A stretch of DNA of 44,332 nucleotides from Candidatus Acidiferrales bacterium. Lineage in GTDB: Bacteria; Acidobacteriota; Terriglobia; Acidiferrales; UBA7541. Positions 37,694-44,332 of this stretch are shown one piece after another. Position 1 is the first letter of the stretch; each line of letters starts with the position of its first letter. Position numbers and translations under genes: made by a program. A model generated the notes under the pieces. The model saw only the letters and a list, made by a program, of their open reading frames with translations, was not told where the DNA came from and did no database searches. Location of the stretch: positions 1 through 44,332 of the forward strand of contig JASHPG010000097.1 in the NCBI GenBank assembly GCA_030038275.1, given 5' to 3'.

Positions 37694-38542
37694 TTACCGC
37701 TTAGGCTTTCCCGGAGAAGGCGGAGGATCAGCGACCGGAGTCGCGGCACGGGGCACATGACGAATGCTCGCGGCAGAGGCGGTGCTGTGCTCGCCGAGCA
37801 TCCGGCGCGAGCCGGTCCAGACCAGTTGTAAACCGGCGAAGATGGCAACGAGCGCGATCGCGTATTTAAGCTTTTTCGCCGGCACCCAGCGCGCCAGCAC
37901 GCATCCGAGAATCACGCCGGGAATTCCGCCCTCGAGCAAACGAACGAGCACCGCGCCGCCGATCGAGCCAAATCCCCAGTGAAAAGCGCTGCCGATTACC
38001 GCGAGCACGAGTCCGAACAGCAGGTCCGTTCCGACGACTTGCGGCGGCGTCATTTCCGAATAGTTCAGCAGCAGCACGGTACCAAGCGCGCCCGCTCCAG
38101 CCGATGAAAACCCCGCTTCCACGCCGATCGGCAGCGCGAGCCACGGCAGCCATTTCGAATTGCGCTTGGCGAAGCCAGGATATTGCACTTTCGGGGCGAA
38201 CGATATGCTCGACGAAGCGGCGAGTAGCAGGCCAAGAAGAATGACGACAATCGGGCTATCGGCATTGCCGCTGAGCAGCCGCAGCAAAAACGTGCCCAGC
38301 AACAGGCCCGGAACCGCTCCTTGGAGCATCAGCCAAAGATAACGAAGGTGAAAATGCTTGCCCGCCAGATAAAACGGCGCGGCGATTAATCGGATCACGC
38401 CAGCGTAAACGAAAGCGGTTCCCACGGCTGTCGTGGCGGGCAGGCCGACCAGCAGCACCAGAGCGGGAACGGTAAAGCTGCCGCCGCCAATTCCCGTCAG
38501 CCCCACGGCCAACGCAATAAAGAATCCGATTAGTATCTGCAT
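37694..38542 (-). CDS. TauE/SafE-family transporter, last gene of the cys operon
   Basis: A 282-residue membrane protein with about eight hydrophobic helices in two related halves. The family marker GLTGIGGGSFTVPALVLL is at the N-terminus and its echo GVEAGFSSAGAGALGTVLLL in the middle. The tail is hydrophilic and Pro-rich. TauE/SafE proteins move sulfur anions. The start shares a base with the cysH stop (TGATG), so it belongs to the cys operon. Many members export sulfite, but in Corynebacterium a TauE-type protein in the cys cluster (CysZ) is a sulfate permease. As no other sulfate transporter gene is present in the operon, uptake of sulfate is my preferred reading. Confidence 0.88.
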   Translation of the reverse strand: MQILIGFFIALAVGLTGIGGGSFTVPALVLLVGLPATTAVGTAFVYAGVIRLIAAPFYLAGKHFHLRYLWLMLQGAVPGLLLGTFLLRLLSGNADSPIVVILLGLLLAASSSISFAPKVQYPGFAKRNSKWLPWLALPIGVEAGFSSAGAGALGTVLLLNYSEMTPPQVVGTDLLFGLVLAVIGSAFHWGFGSIGGAVLVRLLEGGIPGVILGCVLARWVPAKKLKYAIALVAIFAGLQLVWTGSRRMLGEHSTASAASIRHVPRAATPVADPPPSPGKPKR

Positions 38543-39276
38543 CAGTCAGATCGCTTGGATTCGGTGTGAATGCCGCATTCGAGTTTGTTGCCGCCCCAGC
38601 GTCCGGAGCGGGGATCGGCTCCCAAGGCGGGAATCGAAGTGCATGGCTCGCAGCCGATGCTGCGATAGCCGGAGTCGTAGAGCGGAAGATAATCGATGTT
38701 GTGCCTCGCGGTATGCTCCCACACGTTTCCCCACGTCCACGCGGCCAGAGGGCTGACCTTCAGCAGCGTTTTGCCGCTTGGCAACACATGATGCTCGACG
38801 ACTTTCAGATTTTTTCGCGTTGGAGATTGCTCGCGCCGCAAGCCGGTGAACCACAGATCGAAGTTTTCTAGAGCTTCGAAGAGCGGTTCCACCTTTCGGA
38901 GATGGCAGCAGCGGCCGGGATCGGTGCGGTTCAGGATTCCGAACTGTGCTTGCTGCCCGGCGACGGATTGCTTGGCAGCCAGGTTGCGCACATTCAGATT
39001 CCATTTGGCGGCCATGCGATCACGGTACGCATACGTTTCCGCGAAATGGTAGCCGGTATCGAGAAAGAGCACCGGCACGGACGGCATCTTTTGCCGCAGC
39101 ATATCCAGGACGATCATGTCCTCAGCCTGAAAGCTGCAGGTGATGCAGACGGAGCCTCGCTCCACGGCAGCGGCATTTTCGGCAAGCAGACGGCCAATCG
39201 TCGCGTCGGCGGAAAGGACTTCGTATTCTTCGCCAATCGTCTTTTCAGCGCGTTCGCCGAGCGGGGCCTGGCTCAT
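38542..39276 (-). CDS. cysH: CysH, adenylyl-sulfate (APS) reductase
   Basis: A 244-residue enzyme reducing activated sulfate to sulfite with thioredoxin. It has two pairs of extra cysteines that bind a 4Fe-4S cluster: CCHLRKVEPL (about 121-130) and GCEPC (about 207-211). The C-terminal catalytic Cys is in ECGIH. Clustered Cys pairs mark APS-using reductases as opposed to PAPS-using ones. The nucleotide loop SFQAEDM is near residue 47. The start at 39276 overlaps the cysN stop (ATGA); an upstream ATG at 39315 lies inside cysN. Its cluster need links it to the SUF operon nearby. Confidence 0.93.
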   Translation of the reverse strand: MSQAPLGERAEKTIGEEYEVLSADATIGRLLAENAAAVERGSVCITCSFQAEDMIVLDMLRQKMPSVPVLFLDTGYHFAETYAYRDRMAAKWNLNVRNLAAKQSVAGQQAQFGILNRTDPGRCCHLRKVEPLFEALENFDLWFTGLRREQSPTRKNLKVVEHHVLPSGKTLLKVSPLAAWTWGNVWEHTARHNIDYLPLYDSGYRSIGCEPCTSIPALGADPRSGRWGGNKLECGIHTESKRSD

Positions 39277-40988
39277 GAATTTTCCTTTTGCGAATCGGAC
39301 TGCTTGTCGCGCCATTTGCGCAGCACCTTCATGATGCGCTCGGTGGCTTCCTCATCCGTGTCATCGTCGATTTTCACGGCGAAAAACGCGTCGGGGCCGT
39401 AAATGGCGCGGACTACACGCTTTTGATCGGTGCCATCGTCCAACGGGGAAAAAATCGTGATGTGGCCGGAAAGCTGGTACGCCTTAGCCACGGTGACGAG
39501 TTCGTGCGCCAGGAAATCATTGGGCCCGGCGAGTTGCACGTGCCAGCCTTCGTCGAATAGCCGCCGCTCCAGTAACTCCGCAACATGCGGACGGCCTTTC
39601 AGCCACACGGCTCCAGAGGGATGGCCGAAGCGCAGGACGCGTTCTTCCCTAGTGCTGTGCCGCCGCTGCGAGGCCTGCTGTTGCTCCTCAATCGCGCCCT
39701 CGATGATGCCCGCGCCGACGGTGACGTTCGTCAGCGGATCGATCACGATGAAGCTGCCGGTGGTGCGGTTCAGCCGGTAGGGATCGAAGAACAACGGCAG
39801 CGTGGTCTTCACGTCCACCTTGGCGATGTCGTTCATGTCGAGCTTCTTCGATGGAAGCTGTTCGAGAGTGTTGATGTCCACGCGATAGCGGATCTGATGG
39901 ATGCGCGCGCGAACGGTTCGCGCCGTGTGCTTCAGCAGATAAATTTTGTGCGGATCGAGAGGCTCGTGATGCATCCAGACGATCATCGCCTGGAGCGCCG
40001 TGCCGACGGAAGGAAGCTGCTCCTCGCCGGCCAGGATATCGCCGCGGCTGATATCGATTTCGTCTTCCAGTGTGACCGTGACTGAATCGCCGGGCGCGGC
40101 GGATAGCGGCTCGTTCTCAAAAGCCACGATCGAGCGGATGCGCGTCTTCACTTTGGATGGGAGCGCGACGACGGACTGGCCCGCATGCAGCGTTCCCGAG
40201 GCCACCTGTCCGGCAAAACCGCGGAAGCTGGCATCCGGGCGGATCACGTATTGCACCGGGAAACGCAGAGGAGCATCGGGCGAAGCGCCGCTAGCCGGCA
40301 GTTGTTCGAGATATTCAAGAAGCGCGGGGCCAGAGAACCACGGCATGCGCTTGCTGCCGCGAACGACGTTGTCGCCCTCCAGCGCGCTTACCGGCACGGC
40401 ATAGACGTTGCGAATACCGAGCTGACTGGCGAACTGCTGGAATTCAGCGACGATGCGCTCGAACACATCCTGCGAAAAACCGACTAAATCCATTTTGTTG
40501 ACGGCGGCGATGATGTGCTGAACTCCGAGCAGATGCGCGATGTAGGCGTGCCGGCGCGACTGGCGCAGCACGCCTTTGGTGGCGTCCACGAGCACGACGG
40601 ACGCATCCGCCGTGGATGAGCCGGTCGCCATGTTGCGCGTGTACTGTTCGTGACCCGGCGTATCGGCGATGATGAATTTCCGCCGAGGAGTGGAAAAATA
40701 GCGGTAGGCAACATCGATGGTGATGCCCTGCTCGCGTTCGGCGCGAAGACCGTCCGTGAGCAGCGAAAAATCAATCGGACCGGCGGCGCGGTTGATTTTG
40801 CTCTTCTTAACGGATGCGAGCTGATCCTCGAGCACGGCCTGACTGTCGTACAGCAAGCGCCCGATCAGCGTGGATTTGCCGTCATCCACGCTTCCGGCAG
40901 TGCTGAAACGCAGCAGCGTTCCCGCTGATACCGGCTTCGGAATTCCACTTTTTGTCTCCGGAGTGGGCTCCACAGGAGTGGTGGCCAT
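39273..40988 (-). CDS. cysN: CysN, sulfate adenylyltransferase GTPase subunit, with a degenerate APS-kinase tail
   Basis: A 571-residue protein. Residues about 22-235 are the GTPase: GSVDDGKST, then GITIDVAYRYF, DTPGHEQY and NKMD. Two beta-barrel domains follow to about 440. With CysD it makes APS from sulfate and ATP, driven by GTP. The last 120 residues align with the APS-kinase domain of CysNC fusions (GHPSGAVWLKG, ELLERRLFDEGWHVQL) but the P-loop GLSGAGKST is gone, replaced by a shorter GRPHV. The rest of the kinase is shortened. The tail is thus probably inactive as a kinase. Start: ATG 40988 sharing a base with the cysD stop; a TTG one codon earlier is less likely. Confidence 0.95.
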   Translation of the reverse strand: MATTPVEPTPETKSGIPKPVSAGTLLRFSTAGSVDDGKSTLIGRLLYDSQAVLEDQLASVKKSKINRAAGPIDFSLLTDGLRAEREQGITIDVAYRYFSTPRRKFIIADTPGHEQYTRNMATGSSTADASVVLVDATKGVLRQSRRHAYIAHLLGVQHIIAAVNKMDLVGFSQDVFERIVAEFQQFASQLGIRNVYAVPVSALEGDNVVRGSKRMPWFSGPALLEYLEQLPASGASPDAPLRFPVQYVIRPDASFRGFAGQVASGTLHAGQSVVALPSKVKTRIRSIVAFENEPLSAAPGDSVTVTLEDEIDISRGDILAGEEQLPSVGTALQAMIVWMHHEPLDPHKIYLLKHTARTVRARIHQIRYRVDINTLEQLPSKKLDMNDIAKVDVKTTLPLFFDPYRLNRTTGSFIVIDPLTNVTVGAGIIEGAIEEQQQASQRRHSTREERVLRFGHPSGAVWLKGRPHVAELLERRLFDEGWHVQLAGPNDFLAHELVTVAKAYQLSGHITIFSPLDDGTDQKRVVRAIYGPDAFFAVKIDDDTDEEATERIMKVLRKWRDKQSDSQKENS

Positions 40989-41929
40989 CAAAAGTAGCCC
41001 TCGCGTTTCTTGAGTTCCATCGAGCCTTCTTCGTCGTGATCGATTACGCGGTTCTCACGCTCGGACCGGCGGAAGGAAATCATCTCCTCAATAATTTTAG
41101 GAACGGTATCGGCGTCCGACCGGATCGCGCCGGTGCACGGCACACAGCCCAGGGAACGCATCCGGCACTTGACCATCTGCGGCTTTTCGCCGGGCAGCAG
41201 GTGCACGCCGGTTTGCAAAACCAAAATCGAATTTCCGCGGACCACCACTTCGCGCTCTTTCGCGAAATAGAGCGGCACGATGGGAATTTTCTCCGCGTGG
41301 ATGTAGAGCCAGACATCGAACTCCGTCCAATTCGACAGGGGAAAAACGCGAATGCTCTCGCCCTTGTGATGCCGGCCGTTGTAAAGATTCCAAAGCTCGG
41401 GACGCTGGTTCTTGGGATCCCATTGACCGAGGGAATCGCGGAAGGAATAGACGCGTTCCTTGGCGCGCGATTTTTCCTCGTCGCGCCGCGCGCCGCCGAA
41501 GGCCGCGTCGAAACCGCCCTCGGCAAGTCCATCGAGCAGCGAGCGCGTTTTCAGCAATCCGCAGCACTTCTGCGTGCCCAGATCGTACGGGTTGGCGCCT
41601 TCGTCGAGCGCCTTCTGGTTTTTGTGGACGATCAGCTCCGCGCCCACGTGCCGCGCGTACCAGTCGCGAAACTCGATCATTTCCGGGAATTTGTAGTTCG
41701 TGTCGATGTGCAGAAGCGGAAATGGGATCTTCCCGGGATAAAACGCCTTCTGCGCCAAGCGCAGCATTACGGATGAATCCTTGCCGATGGAATAGAGCAT
41801 TACCGGATGCGCGAATTCGGCGGCAGCCTCGCGCAAGATGAAAATGCTCTCGGCTTCGAGCATTTTCAGGTGCTCCAGACGGCTCGCCTCCAGCAGCGGC
41901 ATTGGCTCTGTGGCTCCAACTGTGGTCAT
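40988..41929 (-). CDS. cysD: CysD, sulfate adenylyltransferase catalytic subunit
   Basis: A 313-residue ATP-pyrophosphatase-fold enzyme that adenylates sulfate, working with CysN. Clear motifs are [13 protein letters not shown] (PP-loop), [37 protein letters not shown] (seen in pieces [15 protein letters not shown]), [11 protein letters not shown] and the C-terminal [15 protein letters not shown] 41929 follows GGACGGGA; an in-frame ATG at 41953 would add eight residues and starts only 17 bases after the terminator T-run. It is the first structural gene after the attenuator-like leader and overlaps cysN by one base. Confidence 0.95.
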
Positions 41930-41970: not shown

Positions 41971-42010
41971 CAACAAAAAGCCCGCCTCCTGGACTTGCTC
42001 CAAGGGCGGG
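41971..42010 (-). terminator. Intrinsic terminator in the cysD leader (attenuator)
   Basis: On the minus strand, CCCGCC (42010-42005) pairs with GGCGGG (41986-41981), and inside it CTTGGA pairs with TCCAGG around a GCAAG loop, with one bulged A. That gives about 12 pairs. The stem is followed at once by CTTTTTGTTG. It lies 41 bases before the cysD ATG and 28 bases after the leader-peptide stop, so it would end transcription before the operon unless prevented. Confidence 0.8.
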
Positions 42011-42038
42011 TTGCGTTCAGGCCTAGTTTGGCTGCGAG

Positions 42039-42122
42039 CTAGATCATGAAGTCCGGCGCCCCGGCGCACACGTTTGTGCCGTTACAACAGGTGCTACAAG
42101 CGCGCTGGGGCTTAACTTCCAT
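42039..42122 (-). CDS. Cys-rich leader peptide of the cys operon
   Basis: A 27-residue frame starting MEVKPQRACSTCCNG and ending PDFMI. Four of its 27 codons are cysteine: positions 9, 12, 13 and 19. It starts about 18 bases after the -10 box, so the transcript has a 5' end only some 10 bases ahead of the ATG; GGA lies seven bases before the ATG. It is followed by a terminator and then cysD. This is the plan of amino-acid attenuators: ribosomes slow at Cys codons when Cys-tRNA is scarce. The stalling effect is inferred; the frame, codons and terminator are seen directly. Confidence 0.7.
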   Translation of the reverse strand: MEVKPQRACSTCCNGTNVCAGAPDFMI

Positions 42123-42139
42123 GTTAAATTCCGACTACC

Positions 42140-42168
42140 AGAATAAGCGATAAAACCATGTCAGTCAA
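42140..42168 (-). promoter_or_regulatory. Promoter of the cys operon
   Basis: On the minus strand TTGACT (42168-42163), a 17-base spacer, and TATTCT (42145-42140). Transcription would begin near 42133. The leader-peptide ATG is at 42122, so the untranslated 5' end is very short. Confidence 0.65.
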
Positions 42169-42249: not shown

Positions 42250-42957
42250 TCAGAGCGGCGCCAGGAGCGACTGCAGGAGCGGCGTGGCGGGTGCGCTACA
42301 GAGATCTGCCCACGAACCCCTCTGGATTACCTGCCCCTGCTCCAGCACCACCGCCATTTGAGGGCAGAGGCGCGTGAGCACATCCGCTCGATGGTCCACG
42401 GCAATCATGCTGAACCCGATATTCCTGCTCCAAAAGACCAGATCGTCGATCAATTCGCGCACGAGCTGACGATCCAGGCCGACAAACGGCTCGTCGAGAA
42501 GGACCAGCGGCGGCCTTCGCGCCAGCATCCTGGCCAAGCCGACGCGCCGTGCCTGTCCACCAGAAATACGTGATGCAGGCGCGTTCCAAAGAGGCGCTAA
42601 TTTCAGCCGATTCTTGAGGGTGGCGATCCATTCTGCGCGCTCCGGGTCAGCCTGTTCGATCTTGGATAATCCGAATGTGATGTTGTCGCGCACGGAGAGA
42701 TGCGGGAAAAGGCTCGGCTCTTGCGTTAGATAGCCAATGGATCTGCGATGCAGCGGGAGTGGCGGCGGAAAGAAATGGACGTCGCCGAGATCGATGTAGC
42801 CGTCATCGGGATCCTCAATGCCCGCGATGCACGCAAGCACGGTGCTCTTGCCGACGCCCGACGCTCCGAACAATCCCAGCGACTCTCCGGGGCCAAGCTT
42901 CAGCGAAAAGCTGACGGTAAAATCACGGCGGCGTTTGGTGAAGTGCGCGTCAAGCAT
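42250..42957 (-). CDS. ABC transporter ATPase (ModC-like)
   Basis: A 235-residue ATPase. Walker A is GASGVGKST (about 31-39), Q-loop YLTQEPSLFPHLSV, signature ISGGQARRVGLARML and Walker B LVLLDEPFVGLD, with the H-loop in AVDHRAD. LFPHLSVRDNI is typical of ModC and related oxyanion importers. The molybdate-binding C-terminal domain of longer ModC proteins is absent. It overlaps the permease stop by eight bases and sits at the end of the mod-like operon, upstream of the cys promoter. Confidence 0.9.
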   Translation of the reverse strand: MLDAHFTKRRRDFTVSFSLKLGPGESLGLFGASGVGKSTVLACIAGIEDPDDGYIDLGDVHFFPPPLPLHRRSIGYLTQEPSLFPHLSVRDNITFGLSKIEQADPERAEWIATLKNRLKLAPLWNAPASRISGGQARRVGLARMLARRPPLVLLDEPFVGLDRQLVRELIDDLVFWSRNIGFSMIAVDHRADVLTRLCPQMAVVLEQGQVIQRGSWADLCSAPATPLLQSLLAPL

Positions 42958-43702
42958 GGCTTCTGCGCTGCGCCAGGACGTGCGCCAGCCACGGCAGCGG
43001 CAAGGCGACCGCCAGGAAGATGACGAGCAACGGCATCACTGCCGGCAATCCATAGCTTTGCAAATCGACCCAGAGTTGCACGGGCATGCCGGAGGGATAA
43101 TATGCGGTAACGACAACCGCGCCGAATTCTCCCACGGCGCGAACCCACGCGATACTCAGGGCCACGGCCAATCCCAGGCGCGCCAGGGGCAGCGTGACGC
43201 GGAAAAACACTCTCGTTGGCGTCAGGCCGAGCAAGGCCGCTTGCTTTTGCAGCATGGAAGGAACGGCGTCCAGCGCCGCCACCGCCCCCAACACGTAATA
43301 TCCCATCGCAACATACACTTGAGTGGCCACGAACGCAGGCGCATTGTTGGTCATTGCGACGCCGTAGTGCTGCAACAACCGGCCAATGCCGCCGAAAGGC
43401 CCGAAGGCAAGCGTAAACAGAATTCCAAGGGCAAGCGGAGGCAGCAGAATCGGAACAAGCAGCGCCGCCTGCCATACGAGCCGCTCTTTCGCGCCGCACC
43501 GCGCGATGTAAGCCGCCATGGGCGTGCCGAGCACGACGACAATAACCATCGCGATGGCCGTAAGCACCAGCGACACGCGCACCGAGGCCAAAGCAGGTTC
43601 CCGCACTTGCGCGCTCCATTGCCACGCGCCAATGCGAGCAAACAGCGCCGACAGCGGGTAAAGCAACGCCAGCGCGAGCAAGGCCGCGCCAGCGCGAGCC
43701 AT
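42950..43702 (-). CDS. ABC transporter permease (ModB-like)
   Basis: A 250-residue inner-membrane permease with about six helices. The EAA-type cytoplasmic loop is ALLGLTPTRVFFRVTLPLARLGLAV (seen in ALLGLTPTRVFFRVTLPLA), which contacts the ATPase. GEFGAVVVTAYYPSGMPVQLW is typical of ModB/WtpB. ATG 43702 gives a protein of normal family length. The frame is open to 43804, but that start lies inside the binding-protein gene and would overlap it by 85 bases. Substrate: molybdate, tungstate or sulfate cannot be told apart here. Confidence 0.88.
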   Translation of the reverse strand: MARAGAALLALALLYPLSALFARIGAWQWSAQVREPALASVRVSLVLTAIAMVIVVVLGTPMAAYIARCGAKERLVWQAALLVPILLPPLALGILFTLAFGPFGGIGRLLQHYGVAMTNNAPAFVATQVYVAMGYYVLGAVAALDAVPSMLQKQAALLGLTPTRVFFRVTLPLARLGLAVALSIAWVRAVGEFGAVVVTAYYPSGMPVQLWVDLQSYGLPAVMPLLVIFLAVALPLPWLAHVLAQRRSHA

Positions 43703-43719
43703 CCAGCGCTGGTTGCCGC

Positions 43720-44332
43720 TTACGCGCGGAGCGTTGACGCCCGGTCCGGCGGATCGTATTGAAAACGCCGGAAGATCGATTGTGCTTCGCTGCTCTTCAG
43801 CCATTGAACGAACTCAGCCGCGCCATTCGGATTCGGGGCGCCGGTGAGCGCCGCCGCGTAATAAATCAGAGGCTCCGGATAATACGTCCTGCCGCCGACG
43901 GTGAGCTCCAGCCCAGGATTTTCTTCGCGGCCGTTTTCGGAACTCAGATTGATCTCTTTCGGCAGCGAAATATACGGAAGATCGAAAGGGCCCGGCTGTA
44001 TTTTATACGCCGAGCAAGCGTCCAATTGGCCGCTCTGCAACCGGGCCAAAAGGGTCGGCTCGCTGAAAATTTGCTGCCGATTCATGACTGGCCCGAGCGT
44101 TTTTTCGACCAGATTCGGCTCACGATAAAACTTCGCCGCCAAAGTCATAGTGAAAATGATATTTCGCCCCTGCGGATCGGCGACGGGGTCGGTGCGTCCA
44201 AAACGCAGACCAGGTTCTTGCAGAATCTGCCACCAGTTCGCCTTCCCGGCTGCTGCCGCTTTGAACCGCGACGCGAACTGGCTCTTCGGGCTGTAGGCGA
44301 TCACCATTTCGGTATGCGCGATCGGTTCGGCG
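43720..44332 (-). CDS. Oxyanion-binding protein of the ABC transporter, cut by the window end
   Basis: The C-terminal 200 or so residues of an extracellular solute-binding protein of the ModA/WtpA kind. The frame is open to the window edge (AEPIAHTEMVIAYSPKS precedes), so the start and signal peptide lie outside. Recognisable segments are GRTDPVADPQGRNIIF, LDACSAYKIQPG and AAEFVQWLKSSEAQSIFRRFQY. It would deliver the anion to the ModB-like permease 17 bases downstream. The ligand residues are mostly in the missing part. Confidence 0.88.
   Translation of the reverse strand, partial: AEPIAHTEMVIAYSPKSQFASRFKAAAAGKANWWQILQEPGLRFGRTDPVADPQGRNIIFTMTLAAKFYREPNLVEKTLGPVMNRQQIFSEPTLLARLQSGQLDACSAYKIQPGPFDLPYISLPKEINLSSENGREENPGLELTVGGRTYYPEPLIYYAAALTGAPNPNGAAEFVQWLKSSEAQSIFRRFQYDPPDRASTLRA

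Follow-up and report, generated by a model that had tools for sequence, protein, structure and literature searches.

A candidate cysteine-sensing transcription attenuator ahead of the cysDNH operon, and related cassettes before other operons, in Acidobacteriota

The short leader that precedes the cysDNH-tauE operon of a Candidatus Acidiferrales bacterium is, with a probability that we put at roughly 93%, a ribosome-mediated transcription attenuator of the trp/his type, which would sense charged tRNA-Cys and control the genes behind it. The operon and its leader lie on the minus strand of a 44,332-nt contig (JASHPG010000097.1), the whole of which is referred to below as the window. A preliminary description of this DNA had already suggested a Cys-sensing attenuator at the same site, and this reading is supported by the anatomy of the leader, by conservation, complementarity and covariation and by regulatory codons that fit the pathway, while the start of transcription, leader translation, stalling, termination and the cysteine response are predicted from the sequence. 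Our refinement of it is that the cysD element is one of a regulon, which the data are best read as extending over multiple operons in Acidobacteriota.

NCBIfam and Pfam matches identify the genes behind the leader as cysD, cysN and cysH, in agreement with the earlier assignment of the operon, followed by a gene for a TauE-type exporter (Table 1). Ahead of them, a scan finds a single sigma-70-type promoter, where 0.2 sites would be expected, with exactly the hexamers and the spacer that had been described before. The leader ATG stands 17 nt 3' of the -10 box, so that the predicted 5' UTR of the leader is ~10 nt long. The frame itself was also correctly described as 27 codons with Cys at codons 9, 12, 13 and 19; it reads MEVKPQRACSTCCNGTNVCAGAPDFMI, is preceded by no recognizable Shine-Dalgarno sequence and yields no leader-peptide family in NCBIfam. 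As previously noted, a 12-pair terminator hairpin (42010-41981; -22 kcal/mol) begins 28 nt past the leader stop codon and is followed by the tail CTTTTTGTTG and then by cysD. Farther upstream on the minus strand (42250-44307), there are ABC transporter genes for an ATPase, a permease and a binding protein of a putative molybdate/tungstate/sulfate type, with scores below the NCBIfam cut-offs. The same genome also encodes a second CysD homologue (G000:C233:1010-1900, locus L002) of 60% identity, before which a Cys-cluster leader was not seen. The 191-nt leader as a whole is structured (folding z = -2.5), which would also suit a riboswitch or another small-molecule RNA sensor that acts through the same terminator and has no need of leader translation. 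However, apart from a tRNA, the Rfam covariance models, including those for the T-box and SAM families, had no match in the window or in any of nine related loci, and a permissive threshold did not change this. Furthermore, the conserved elements consist of codons and pairing, and the same cassette is common to Cys, Thr and branched-chain pathways with codons to match (see below). Thus, we consider a direct small-molecule sensor to be very unlikely.

Table 1. Coordinates of the cysD leader, its operon and the related cassettes with other regulatory codons
Feature	Position or locus	Strand	Basis or remark
Promoter -35 hexamer, TTGACT	42163..42168	-	Promoter scan
Promoter -10 hexamer, TATTCT	42140..42145	-	Promoter scan; 17-nt spacer from -35
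Leader peptide frame, 27 codons (ATG 42122, stop 42039)	42039..42122	-	Position and Cys content kept in relatives
Regulatory Cys codons, all TGT: 9 (42098-42096), 12 (42089-42087), 13 (42086-42084)	42084..42098	-	
Cys codon 19 (TGC)	42066..42068	-	Within the antiterminator strand
Region 1, 5' arm of leader hairpin	42100..42119	-	Fold; predicted to hide region 2 if the leader is untranslated
Region 2, antiterminator strand	42057..42068	-	Partner 42008-41996; stalled-ribosome fold, family-wide complementarity and covariation
Region 3, terminator first arm	41999..42010	-	Fold, alignment
Region 4, terminator second arm	41981..41993	-	Fold, alignment
Terminator tail	41971..41980	-	
cysD, sulfate adenylyltransferase subunit 2	40988..41929	-	ATG 41929; in-frame GTG 41953 also
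cysN, sulfate adenylyltransferase subunit 1	39273..40991	-	
cysH, (phospho)adenylylsulfate reductase	38542..39315	-	
TauE/SafE-type sulfite/sulfur-compound exporter	37694..38542	-	
ilvB cassettes	L257, L264, L340-L349		Same terminator scaffold
Aspartokinase cassettes	L258, L259, L326, L358, L363, L365		Same terminator scaffold

In the proposed mechanism, transcription would start ~10 nt ahead of the frame that bears Cys codons 9, 12 and 13. With ample Cys-tRNA, the ribosome would run to the stop codon and cover region 2, in which case regions 3 and 4 would form the terminator and transcription would end before cysD. With Cys-tRNA in short supply, the ribosome would stall at codons 9-13 and cover region 1, leaving region 2 free to pair with the terminator first arm while the second arm has yet to be transcribed, and RNA polymerase would continue into the operon. 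If the leader were left untranslated, region 1 would lock region 2 and termination would be the default. Folds computed with and without a ribosome on the leader are consistent with this scheme, yielding the antiterminator when the ribosome is stalled and the region 1:2 hairpin when the leader is untranslated. The latter (-33.7 kcal/mol) pairs GCCCC (42111-42107) with GGGGC (42062-42058) and GCGCGC (42105-42100) with 42069-42064, and because it is predicted in many relatives but not in all, this element varies across the family. The pairing of GGGGCG (42062-42057) with 42008-42003 that had been proposed as the antiterminator is present in the stalled-ribosome fold, but its extent had been underestimated, as it forms the core of a longer helix between 42068-42057 and 42008-41996; the stalled-ribosome structure in the window amounts to -22.6 kcal/mol, inner helices counted. 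It should be noted that with the full downstream RNA the terminator wins over the antiterminator at equilibrium even when the ribosome is stalled (-39.8 kcal/mol), and therefore the predicted switch must be kinetic and decided during transcription, as in other attenuators.

For the comparison of leaders, regions upstream of cysD were drawn from 61 relatives, 299 class members and 80 public loci, and a Cys leader was counted wherever a frame having 3 or more Cys within 6 codons occurred no farther than 350 nt from cysD. Such a leader precedes cysD in 27/32 loci of the family to which the window belongs (f1; shuffles mean 1.7, maximum 5) and in 28/29 loci of a second family, f11, the putative Acidobacteriaceae (shuffle mean 2.7), as well as in 1/33 loci of f7, the putative Bryobacterales (shuffle mean 0.7), with none on the opposite strand in any of the three. 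Among the f1 loci with no combined hit, one (L111) sits close behind a transporter gene and two (L113 and L146) have weaker Cys leaders with a terminator. In other phyla, 47 cysD loci gave 4 weak hits and no convincing Cys leader. A leader and a terminator in the correct order are present in forty loci, most of them from f1. Both elements precede cysD, for instance, in the cultivated relatives Acidobacterium sp. S8 (L055) and Granulicella sp. dw_53 (L058). The preliminary description had made its reading depend upon the conservation of the Cys codons and the hairpin in close relatives, and both are conserved in the genus and the family; the cysD leaders of relatives likewise keep the promoter spacing and the complementarity between terminator and antiterminator, with compensatory changes present. 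In the same-genus loci with a complete leader, a TTGACA/T hexamer with a 17-18 nt spacer occurs at an equal position in 10/10. The leader start codons stand mostly 7-14 nt past the -10 box in the relatives and 17 nt past it in the window (mostly 7-17 nt overall), a distance so short that these leaders may, like those of mycobacteria, be translated leaderless or nearly so.

The Cys codons themselves occur at different positions and with different spacings among the loci (e.g. CSTCC, CCTCC, CCCCC and CCSCC), and therefore it is the amino acid that is kept and not a motif. The leader Cys codons of the window (42098-42084) and of 40 related leaders are TGT in 133 cases and TGC in 15, compared with 14 and 42 in the other frames of the window. 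Since selection at the codon level is inseparable from nucleotide conservation within TGT repeats, our argument rests upon the varying Cys positions together with the codon switch described below. Given that the transporter genes upstream are on the same strand and that short frames are common, one might still suppose a chance frame followed by the ordinary terminator of the transporter operon, with no regulation at all. Such a coincidence is highly improbable, as there is a promoter between the transporter operon and the leader, the leader, Cys cluster and terminator are all kept across loci and even before unrelated genes, and leader and terminator covary.

The output of the switch could conceivably differ from that outlined above, with Cys-codon stalling as the signal and a mainly Rho-dependent or translational response, as has been proposed for mycobacterial Cys leaders. 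Most f11 loci would fit such a scheme, as they have poly-Cys leaders without an intrinsic terminator, whereas the family of the window keeps a strong intrinsic terminator with a T tail and with a first arm that pairs with the leader; accordingly, for the window we judge this reading to be unlikely. The f11 loci with poly-Cys leaders before cysD and without an intrinsic terminator include L123, L128, L129, L134, L136, L159 and L171, among others, and a C- and T-rich stretch follows the poly-Cys leader in some f11 loci. A Rho-dependent or translational output is possible for these leaders, and the Acidobacteriaceae, which mostly have no intrinsic terminator at this site, may use an output other than the intrinsic termination predicted for the window.

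In the attenuator reading, two separate parts of the leader have to match each other. Among the forty loci with both elements, the RNA that directly follows the Cys codons shows complementarity to the terminator first arm, and cognate pairs of leader and arm surpass swapped pairs (permutation 0/20000). The same result is obtained in the 30 more diverse loci (0/20000), but in the ten same-genus loci, whose sequences hardly differ, cognate pairs have no advantage over swapped ones (4614/20000). The ungapped complementarity in the genome of the window alone is modest (6 pairs, z 0.2). To represent the stalled state, the RNA beneath a ribosome on the Cys codons was removed from the fold and the second arm of the terminator was treated as not yet made; the leader then pairs with at least 5 bases of the terminator first arm in 40/40 loci, compared with a mean of 25.7 and a maximum of 31 for shuffled leader segments. 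Pairs were also counted in an alignment of 31 rows that combines the cassettes of several genes, in which the 7-pair antiterminator core is 79.9% paired vs ≤49.5% when slid, and exhibits 18 two-sided changes vs 7.9 in shuffles. The terminator helix is 95.1% paired with compensatory changes present (alignment A4). Because the shuffle control can be inflated by relatedness among the sequences, we give greater weight to the slid control and to the pairing that is lost on swapping.

Genome-wide scans with covariance models and patterns indicate that the cysD leader has counterparts elsewhere. The training set of a first model (R1) consisted solely of ten same-genus cysD leaders, and this model detected further cassettes in the same genomes before genes for sulfurtransferases, sulfite reductase, TauE and other sulfur functions. 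A second model (R2) found 1-6 cassettes in 19/20 genomes of the genus and matches in 23/39 of the family; its training set took in some sulfur-gene cassettes that R1 had detected first, and thus its E-values for these are not independent. Sequence clustering and Pfam identified the genes behind the R1 and R2 matches as 23 rhodanese-type sulfurtransferases, 16 sulfite/nitrite reductases and 7 siroheme-pathway genes, in addition to TauE exporters, an ATP sulfurylase, substrate-binding proteins, porins and others; cysS was absent from the genes identified. The leaders before the sulfur genes are Cys-rich in nearly all cases, and the genome of the window carries a second Cys cassette (G000:C65:10925-11081, L240) before a rhodanese-type sulfurtransferase gene. 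In one genome, a Cys leader with a terminator lies directly before a tRNA-Cys (GCA) gene (L253, G002:C128:49287-49444), but since this is the only one of 18 tRNA-Cys genes to have such a leader (17 were without), tRNA control is not general. A search for the CCxCC codon pattern in four genomes returned mostly background.

Further cassettes have the same terminator scaffold with other codons. Ten are found before ilvB, nearly all with runs of Val, Ile and Leu (e.g. LEIVVVRLV), and six before aspartokinase genes with runs of Thr (MSTTSTTTTSTI); neither group was part of the R2 training set. An ilvB cassette is also present in the genome of the window (G000:C234:20005-20159, VRLRLGIVAVALVRASRPGGLD). 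For the leaders of asd, which encodes aspartate-semialdehyde dehydrogenase, no clear regulatory codon was established. Codons that match the pathway on a common scaffold are predicted by ribosome-mediated attenuation and not by protein-binding, riboswitch or microprotein readings, and we regard these unsought cassettes as the strongest test of the attenuator reading. The last of these would make the frame a functional Cys-rich microprotein, for instance a metal- or thiol-binding one, with an incidental terminator, and some leaders, with runs of as many as six Cys codons, might seem to favor it. Nevertheless, the Cys spacing is not kept, the remainder of the peptide is variable except for the tail encoding the RNA strand that pairs with the terminator, the same scaffold carries Thr or Val/Ile residues before aspartokinase and ilvB, and there is no family match, which leaves a microprotein with very little probability. 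Returning to attenuation, we propose, with about even odds, that a single cassette has spread across the genome in Terriglobia with nothing altered except its regulatory codons. This cassette would consist of a near-leaderless frame, a tail that provides the antiterminator and a terminator of the CCCACCGCCAGA...TGGCAGGTGGG type, and its versions would together form a network of attenuators for Cys, Thr and branched-chain pathways. The Cys versions would stand before cysD, sulfurtransferase, sulfite reductase, siroheme, ATP sulfurylase, exporter and porin genes, and before tRNA-Cys in one genome.

The anatomy of the cysD leader resembles that of the classical attenuators of Proteobacteria (trp, his, leu, ilv, thr and phe), which also combine a promoter, a frame with regulatory codons, mutually exclusive 1:2, 2:3 and 3:4 pairings and a terminator with a U tail, except that it has Cys as its amino acid, a predicted 5' UTR that is very short and has no Shine-Dalgarno sequence, and a host in the phylum Acidobacteriota. 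The T-box and S-box systems of Cys and Met genes in Firmicutes similarly control sulfur amino-acid genes by premature termination, although they bind tRNA or SAM directly, and the leader does not match such families in Rfam. Cys-sensing leaders are themselves known from elsewhere. In Actinobacteria, Cys leader frames without conserved terminator hairpins were predicted before cys operons in 2005 (PMC1262725), and the mycobacterial ones were later studied by Canestrari et al. 2020, as cited in PMC9094748 and PMC13236596, with the mycobacterial case described in the latter as translation attenuation. These polycysteine leaders share with ours the position before sulfur-assimilation genes and may also resemble it in leaderless or near-leaderless translation, which is here predicted from the -10 spacing, while the intrinsic terminator and covarying antiterminator set ours apart. 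In Rhodobacterales, the uORFC-8-2 motif comprises a uORF that contains tandem Cys codons and, 3' of it, a structure ending in a U run like an intrinsic terminator, and ribosome-mediated attenuation has been predicted for this motif (PMC8632094). That motif is confined to Alphaproteobacteria and to one gene, the aminoacyl-tRNA synthetase gene cysS, with UGC dominant, whereas the cassettes described here belong to Acidobacteriota and precede cysD for sulfate assimilation and many other sulfur operons, with UGU dominant. The novelty claimed in the preliminary description thus holds for the phylum, as no report of a Cys attenuator in Acidobacteriota was found in the literature searched, mostly outside subscription papers, but it does not hold for Cys leaders in general. 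What is new here is a candidate Cys attenuator in Acidobacteriota with a large predicted target set.

Acidobacteriota are among the most abundant soil bacteria. The predicted switch would let the cell read its cysteine level and keep these genes on only when cysteine is short, and if the proposed cassette network is true, it would fill the role that known protein regulators of sulfur assimilation have in other phyla. According to a survey from 2010, the attenuators predicted in acidobacteria have, with hardly an exception, no function linked to them (PMC2965389); one such class now gains a predicted function, sensed amino acid, mechanism and list of targets. Control of cysteine and sulfur metabolism in Acidobacteriota also becomes testable with a simple reporter. 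Lastly, the switch between Cys, Thr and Val/Ile codons on one scaffold constitutes a natural experiment that links the leader codon to the pathway and illustrates how attenuators may be relocated and retuned.
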